A program made the translations under genes and the position numbers. Shown piece by piece: positions 10,180 to 45,842 of a DNA stretch of 64,000 bases (position 1 is its first letter; each line of letters opens with the position of its first letter). Location of the stretch: NCBI GenBank assembly GCA_902768975.1, contig CACXMZ010000005.1, positions 248,001 through 312,000 on the forward strand, read 5' to 3'. Under the pieces are notes generated by a model. It was given only the letters and a program-made list of their open reading frames with translations, did not search any database and was not told the origin of the DNA. Source of the stretch: an uncultured Coriobacteriaceae bacterium (GTDB lineage Bacteria > Actinomycetota > Coriobacteriia > Coriobacteriales > Eggerthellaceae).

Positions 10180-10363
10180 ATAGGGTTCGGATATCGCTAT
10201 TTGCGATGTCGTGAGTTCAAATATCGCAATTTTCGCTGTTGCCGAAAATTGCACTTAACTAAGTTGACGAGCGTCAAGCGAGAGCGCATGAAAGAAAAAG
10301 CCCTAAATGGGCTTTTTCTTGAACAGCGGAAGCGGTCGCAAAATAGCGATACCCGAACCCTAT
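10180..10363. repeat. Structured repeat element, copy 1 (possible novel ncRNA)
   Basis: Read on the plus strand, an outer stem of about 26 bp (10180-10206 with 10336-10363) encloses three parts. The first is a hairpin at 10226-10252 with a 10-bp stem and loop CTGTTGC. The second is a linker containing GAGCGCATGA (10282-10291). The third is a perfect 12-bp hairpin at 10292-10320, followed by GAACAGCGGAAG. The sequence CGCTGTT (10234-10240) is complementary to AACAGCG (10322-10328), giving a possible 7-bp pseudoknot. The loops and linkers recur in copy 2 at 45642-45828 while the stems differ in sequence. It fills the gap between the convergent rpsT and holA genes. It matches no RNA family that I recognise. 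Confidence 0.8.
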
Positions 10364-35147: not shown

Positions 35148-35263
35148 GCTGCGAAACCATAGAGAATCCTAAGAAAGAAAACTCCTGAAGGCAGATGCCC
35201 TTCAGCATCCGTTTTCTTTCTTGATGATTCTGGAAGAAACAGAACCCTCTATGGTTTCGCAGC
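35148..35263. other. Nested inverted-repeat structure (possible ncRNA)
   Basis: A perfect 17-bp outer stem (35148-35164 with 35247-35263) encloses three further elements: a perfect 12-bp stem (35171-35182 with 35211-35222), inside it a 7-bp stem CTGAAGG / CCTTCAG with a 7-base loop, and beside it a 5-bp hairpin (35228-35244). It lies in the divergent region between the unknown membrane protein and the DUF3800-like gene. The layout suggests a folded RNA or a single-stranded DNA structure. No loop sequence is shared with the elements at 10.2 or 45.7 kb. Confidence 0.75.
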
Positions 35264-40057: not shown

Positions 40058-40257
40058 AAAGGAAGCTGGGAGTCATTTTTCGAGCTTCTCGGAGCTTTTA
40101 GGCACAGGAAGTGCGCTAGTACTGAAACGCGCTAGTTTAATTAATGGGGCGTGTGTGAAGGGATGAGGTGACAGGTGTCCCATTGGTCGCGCGCTTCATA
40201 TGCGCACTTCTCGTGCCGTTAAAAAAGCGACCGAGAAAAATGACTCCCAGTTCCTTT
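40058..40257. repeat. 200-bp nested inverted-repeat element (MITE/REP-like)
   Basis: Outer arms at 40058-40081 and 40235-40257 are reverse complements except for one inserted base. Inner segments GCACAGGAAGTGCGC and GCGCACTTCTCGTGC also pair with two mismatches, as does ACTGAAACGCGC with a sequence near 40190-40200, so almost the whole element can fold on itself. The centre carries GTGACAGGTGTCCCA, the style of REP units linked to RAYT transposases. It fills the 338-base gap between def and dnaG and holds no reading frame. Confidence 0.75.
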
Positions 40258-45617: not shown

Positions 45618-45641
45618 ATTCGTATTTCTTTCAAATCGTTA

Positions 45642-45828
45642 AGGGAATGCGCGAGAGGTGTTTGGGTAATCCTGAACTACAAACTCCAATTTGAAATATT
45701 CGCTGTTGCCGAATATTTCAACTTTAAAAGTGAAGTGAAGAATACCGTGAGCGCATGAGCGAAAACAATCCAGTGAATTGTTTTCGCGAACAGCGGAAGG
45801 GGTACCCAAACACCTCTCGCGATTCCCT
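45642..45828. repeat. Structured repeat element, copy 2 (possible novel ncRNA)
   Basis: The architecture and orientation are the same as at 10180-10363. It has an outer stem of 26 bp plus one bulge (45642-45668 with 45803-45828) and a hairpin at 45693-45719 with a 10-bp stem and the identical loop CTGTTGC. The linker GAGCGCATGA (45749-45758) precedes an 11-bp hairpin (45759-45787) followed by GAACAGCGGAAG. CGCTGTT (45701-45707) and AACAGCG (45789-45795) can pair. All stem sequences differ from copy 1 yet remain complementary. It lies between infB and rbfA on the strand opposite to that operon. Confidence 0.8.
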
Positions 45829-45842
45829 ATAAAGCTTTCAAG

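Follow-up and report, generated by a model that had tools for sequence, protein, structure and literature searches.

Two related palindromes in one stretch of DNA

What kind of element is the palindrome at positions 10180-10363 of the window (the whole 64-kb stretch of DNA analysed here), and how does it relate to a second palindrome at 45641-45830? An earlier note had described two loci with common loops and linkers and with stems that differ in sequence yet stay complementary; the segments were present as quoted, and its coordinates for both loci were correct. In copy 1, the outer arms of 23 nt (10180-10202 and 10341-10363) were 96% complementary, and the stem was extended by GCGA (10203-10206) pairing with TCGC (10336-10339), with one bulged base. 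The outer arms of copy 2 lay at about 45641-45668 and 45803-45830. Folding compared with dinucleotide shuffles gave z values of -9.6 (copy 1) and -9.5 (copy 2), and 0/200 shuffles equalled either. Within the window, exact matches to GAACAGCGGAAG occurred in these two copies only. The parts of both copies are listed below.

10180..10206, + strand: copy 1, left arm of outer stem P1, locus-specific (ATAGGGTTCGGATATCGCTATTT + GCGA); inverted repeat and arm alignment
10226..10252, + strand: copy 1, hairpin P2, GCAATTTTC-GCTGTTGCC-GAAAATTGC; folding and double changes in the family
10253..10264, + strand: copy 1, small hairpin P2b, ACTT-AACT-AAGT; read from the sequence, with variants in alignment A4
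10282..10291, + strand: copy 1, conserved unpaired motif GAGCGCATGA; GCGCA(T/C)GA in 35/39 diverse copies
10292..10320, + strand: copy 1, hairpin P4, AAGAAAAAGCCC-TAAAT-GGGCTTTTTCTT; folding and double changes in the family
10321..10332, + strand: copy 1, conserved motif GAACAGCGGAAG; identical in the two copies of the window
10336..10363, + strand: copy 1, right arm of P1 (TCGC, bulged A, AAATAGCGATACCCGAACCCTAT); inverted repeat and arm alignment
45641..45668, + strand: copy 2, left arm of P1, with no sequence relation to that of copy 1; inverted repeat
45691..45721, + strand: copy 2, hairpin P2, TTGAAATATTC-GCTGTTGCC-GAATATTTCAA; folding
45749..45799, + strand: copy 2, GAGCGCATGA, P4 and GAACAGCGGAAG in that order; folding, exact motif match and family pattern search
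45803..45830, + strand: copy 2, right arm of P1; inverted repeat

Copy 1 neighbours a ribosomal S20 gene and a convergent holA-like DNA polymerase III delta gene (DNA_pol3_delta match), whose stop codon abuts the outer end of the right arm. Copy 2 sits between rbfA and infB (RBFA and IF-2 matches).

A repeat family confined to Eggerthellaceae among the genomes of the order

With an exact pattern built on both copies, we located 15 copies in the 1.89-Mb genome to which the window belongs, and more in two Eggerthellaceae MAGs from deer gut. A covariance model (R1) gave 35 matches in the own genome (96% complete), which was examined at the matched loci and retrieved stretches, and 12, 15 and 2 matches in three other species of the same genus; it also found copies in two other genera. 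The earlier note had proposed a covariance search for further copies in relatives, and such copies were indeed found. With a refined model (R2) rebuilt from 39 diverse copies, the family was present in 21/399 genomes of the order, a lower bound, given the strict filters applied when searching more than 40 genomes. All 21 belong to the window's own family (21/21), and 11/123 genera were positive. Outside the order, R2 gave one weak match (E 5e-4). The copies form recent subfamilies.

We searched Rfam 15 with the window and 16 loci from several genera. The results showed no family at the gathering score or at E up to 10, the only match being a tRNA, in agreement with the earlier note's failure to recognise a known RNA family. 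No Rfam ribozyme matched the window or the 16 loci, and no evidence for a ribozyme was found. A literature search on Eggerthella repeats or motifs, covering texts outside supplementary motif lists, returned nothing relevant. Seven pattern matches in viral contigs, none of them with a core, were attributed to chance, as were two matches in genome contigs (L018 and L024). We regard it as certain that this is a genuine, unlisted family of covarying repeats, each with an outer stem of its own.

A covarying core inside private stems

The repeat is about 190 nt long, of which 130 nt form a conserved multi-hairpin core. The consensus order is the private stem P1, CUCUGAACAC, P2, P2b, ..GCAUGAAGCAGUGCAGCGCAUGA, P4, GAACAGCGGAGCGG and P1'. 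In an alignment of 39 copies (A4), 98.6% of cells were paired. Double changes occurred at 23/27 pairs (9/9 in P2 and 10/11 in P4), with 309 double-change cells against 75 in shuffles, and the covariation score was 0.80, compared with 0.20 in shuffles and 0.08-0.17 once partners were slid; A4 was fitted to a model already containing P2 and P4, so the counts lean towards these stems, but the collapse on sliding is still large. The stems thus covary beyond column composition and relatedness, which bears out the suggestion that selection acts on a folded nucleic acid.

Two unpaired motifs flanking P4, GCGCAUGA and GAACAGCG, were constant across genera, and GAACAGCG was kept in 30/39 diverse copies. 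P2b occurred in A4 as ACTT/AAGT, GCTT/AAGC, GCAT/ATGC and CGTT/AACG, and a further inner stem was seen by eye as CTGAAC/GTTCAG, CGAAAC/GTTTCG and ATGCGC/GCGCAT in different copies. The pseudoknot proposed earlier (CGCTGTT with AACAGCG) can be drawn in both window copies but is not family-wide, since the P2 loop that it needs, GCTGTT, was present in 13/39 copies. With its A and T tracts, P4 often looks as though it could terminate transcription in both directions. Nested in the core, mostly within P4, we also observed a structured mini-repeat of 80 nt (GGCGACCGAGAGGGAGCATGCAGCTCAGCGAAGCTGAGCGCAT) (L118 4271-4484, L123, L126, L104, L142 and L138).

The outer stem P1 behaved differently from the core, a feature absent from the earlier account: it spans 20-35 bp, is near-perfect and is unique to each site. 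Across about 65 copies, each arm compared with its inverted partner was identical at 1261/1394 inner columns. Between sites, arm similarity fell to the level of shuffled sequence, though many cores were more than 85% and even more than 90% identical. Arm similarity did not follow core similarity (Mantel r -0.06, p 0.88), which rules out arms travelling along with the core. No clear T-run of the kind expected after an intrinsic terminator followed the outer stem; runs of three or more T were found at 14 and 8 of 67 ends, compared with 12% at random.

A second, unrelated repeat family was observed at window positions 40059-40257 and at L260, L262, L265-L267, L272 and L274 of genome G000. Its interior is conserved and its arms differ by copy (GGCTCCTTGTTGCCCTAAACAAC, CTGGGAGTCATTTTTC, CGGTATGCCATTTTTC and others), so private arms are not tied to one core. 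A hairpin outside the family studied here occupies 35148-35263 of the window; its 17-bp arms (GCTGCGAAACCATAGAG) match perfectly and stand 82 nt apart. At L135 (after 1221) and L156 (after 1164), right arms were tandemly repeated, with or without P4 and GAACAGCG, and the arm sequences differed.

Mismatches point to RNA of the + strand

We counted arm mismatches on the + strand after removal of near-duplicate orthologues. G·U mismatches significantly outnumbered A·C mismatches (45 vs 17, p 0.0005). Where the neighbouring genes run on the other strand ('--' copies), the ratio had the same direction (15:6), which was not significant alone; the conserved CGC:GCG helix together with P2 and P4 gave about 18:2. 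Template switching is blind to strand, and the G·U excess therefore indicates selection on + strand RNA. Strand-biased mutation, possibly linked to replication, could contribute part of this excess; transcription direction gives no explanation for it. The earlier note had left the choice between RNA and folded single-stranded DNA; the asymmetry favours RNA of the strand read there (+) and disfavours single-stranded DNA. The + strand RNA is thus the likely selected form, and the copies would be expressed as RNA.

Placement behind genes and comparison of orthologous sites

In 26/45 copies with a gene pointing towards the element, no more than 10 nt separated the gene's stop codon from the end of an arm, the distances being taken from approximate ORF calls. 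The copies adjoin housekeeping genes, and divergent gene pairs are rare around them. This placement is consistent with insertion into very short intergenic gaps; a 3'-UTR element would show the same placement, so stop-codon proximity decides neither reading. At L105 (about 1480-1660, G000:C4), each arm falls on the coding end of one of two convergent genes: a queA-like gene (its name read from sequence alone) that ends in ..GDAMLIKG, and a neighbour whose end is ..KDDAH. The palindrome therefore spans two C-termini. In genome G052 (L145-L148 and L156), duplicated genes lie upstream of the copies and encode repetitive proteins that look secreted. The flank of about 500-530 bp shared by the G052 copies was rejected as a partner gene, as it consists of duplicated 3' gene ends.

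Flank comparison among three species identified about 16 shared sites; as several sites occur in three species, most copies are old. At some of them both arms and core were kept (core identity 0.99 for L133/L106 and 0.96 for L012/L022), and at others the position was kept and the core type or orientation was not. The arms of L118/L157, and of L021 and its counterpart in G001, were plainly the same with the core reversed. Such core inversion between related arms had not been part of the earlier account. At L009/L137 and L045/L138, the arms were apparently homologous and had changed with pairing kept, and the cores were of different types. Core conservation could equally well reflect host function.

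Empty sites were also found. The own-genome site orthologous to L134 (flanks 93% identical) lacked core and arms except, at most, a few initial bases of one arm beside the stop codon, and relatives' sites for L121, L128, L130 and L009 carried neither arm. As several empty sites have no arms, a pre-existing palindromic target was rejected. The G004 site orthologous to L123 carried one arm sequence, CTTGCTGGTAGTGC, and at L139 an element-poor relative had the left outer AAAGGG and lacked the matching right CCCTTT; a short hairpin at this relative's site may be a relic. Deletions can mimic empty sites, so the direction of change is unproven. At the sites orthologous to L002 (G004, L195) and L120 (G001, L197), a long hairpin with an unrelated loop was observed in place of the element.

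A probable mobile structured-RNA repeat and its rivals

We consider it moderately probable that the family is a non-autonomous, probably mobile structured-RNA repeat with arms that template switching rewrites again and again. The + strand RNA would fold into P1, the core strands, P2, P2b and P4, with GCGCAUGA and GAACAGCG around P4, and the element would land between genes, typically directly behind stop codons. During or after insertion, DNA-polymerase template switching between the arms would rewrite one from the other and occasionally flip the core. The expected outcome would be a near-perfect outer stem proper to each site around a core sequence common to, and exchanged among, sites. Selection would keep the pairing and the core motifs, acting on the + strand RNA or on the part that this RNA plays when the element is copied. 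Template switching between inverted repeats leads to arm homogenisation and spacer inversion (PMC8604942), and it makes and maintains RNA hairpins (PMC8794818). We propose it here because homogenised arms and an inverted core are its published signature (PMC8604942), and it likely shapes the arms. Mobility would be the reason for the spread; no transposition was observed.

A mainly selfish mobile repeat is favoured over a host cis-acting RNA, that is, a 3'-UTR hairpin selected by the host at each site to stabilise or terminate the upstream mRNA, which we regard as somewhat unlikely. The 26/45 copies close to stop codons, the housekeeping neighbours, the terminator-like P4 with its A and T tracts and the occupied sites common to species (core identity 0.85-0.99 at some) would all suit such a hairpin. 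However, in '--' copies, where the bias is kept, the neighbouring genes lie antisense to the favoured RNA strand, T-runs after the outer stem are only slightly in excess, copy 1 has a separate ordinary terminator upstream, and relatives' empty sites are without an obvious substitute. Insertion itself might instead make the arms, the core copying about 20-25 nt of one flank, inverted, to the other side. This is unlikely in our judgement, although it would explain why sites with nearly identical cores have unrelated arms, why one arm sequence stands at the site orthologous to L123 and AAAGGG without CCCTTT at L139, and why both L105 arms are the ends of protein-coding genes. Against it, the empty L121, L128, L130 and L009 sites carry neither arm and L134 at most a few bases, the relatives' states could be deletions, and rewriting after insertion is in any case evident from inverted cores and drifting arms at old sites. 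A new kind of mobile element, whose RNA-structured core inserts behind stop codons and duplicates about 20-25 nt of one flank in inverted form, each new copy thereby deriving its outer stem from its target, is a distinctly improbable extension of this idea.

The earlier note's suggestion of a folded recombination substrate of a mobile element is possible, and we searched for enzymes that might move the mobile repeat favoured here. An element resembling REP/REPIN or IS200/IS605, mobilised by a Y1 (HUH) transposase that works on one folded strand, would fit the strand-specific folding and the RAYT-sized Y1 proteins, which are common in Eggerthellaceae and occur in element-bearing genomes (12/21). 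The frequency in other genomes was similar (60/119, p 0.64, no association), no Y1 transposase was found in the own genome (96% complete, 35 copies), and comparison of arms between sites revealed no common end sequence or tag, all of which makes such an element very unlikely. An RNA-copied, SINE-like element served in trans by a reverse transcriptase would agree with selection on the RNA strand and with the recent subfamilies. Nevertheless, no RVT_1 was found in the window's genus, and RVT_1 was present in 1/21 element-bearing and 29/119 other genomes (p 0.046), opposite to an association; this route is scarcely probable. Target-site duplication was not enriched overall (observed mean 4.63, compared with 4.49 in mismatched flanks). 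A 16-bp repeat at L007 was rejected as a target duplication, as it derives from the neighbouring second repeat.

Relation to known systems and significance

The family resembles REP/REPIN sequences with RAYT (PMC3116915, PMC3733652, PMC8266576), which are likewise short palindromic, many-copy, intergenic, non-autonomous and organised in intragenomic families. REPs, however, share one palindrome and a tag of the GTAG/CGTC type, whereas in the present family the copies have no outermost-stem sequence in common, conservation lies in a multi-hairpin core of 130 nt, and the search of the own genome yielded no Y1 protein. Bacterial MITEs and small mobile sequences (RU/ERIC, PMC2759123, PMC2229807; MITEAba12, PMC6382973) are alike in size and intergenic placement, nested insertions, and presence or absence between relatives, seen here as empty sites at L134, L121, L128, L130 and L009. 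MITEs differ in having family-wide terminal inverted repeats and target duplications, while the repeats here are site-private with no overall duplication. Hairpins and inverted repeats maintained by template switching (PMC8794818, PMC8604942) show the same arm homogenisation and spacer inversion, but those cases concern RNA genes and short yeast repeats, compared with dozens of copies of one core in separate 20-35 bp stems. Orphan structured ncRNA motifs (e.g. PMC2864571, PMC8040213) also have covarying stems, invariant loops and no known function; the present family differs in its tens of copies per genome, one stem without shared sequence and no Rfam match.

For readers of genomes, these results carry a caution that perfect private stems with covariation need not mean separate functional RNAs. 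Selection on RNA is usually hard to tell from strand-blind template switching, and the G·U versus A·C count helps to do so. If mobile, the family would represent a class of repeats without a common end sequence, missed by finders that use shared terminal repeats. One RNA core held in dozens of near-perfect stems that drift independently amounts to a natural replicate experiment on the origin and upkeep of long RNA stems.
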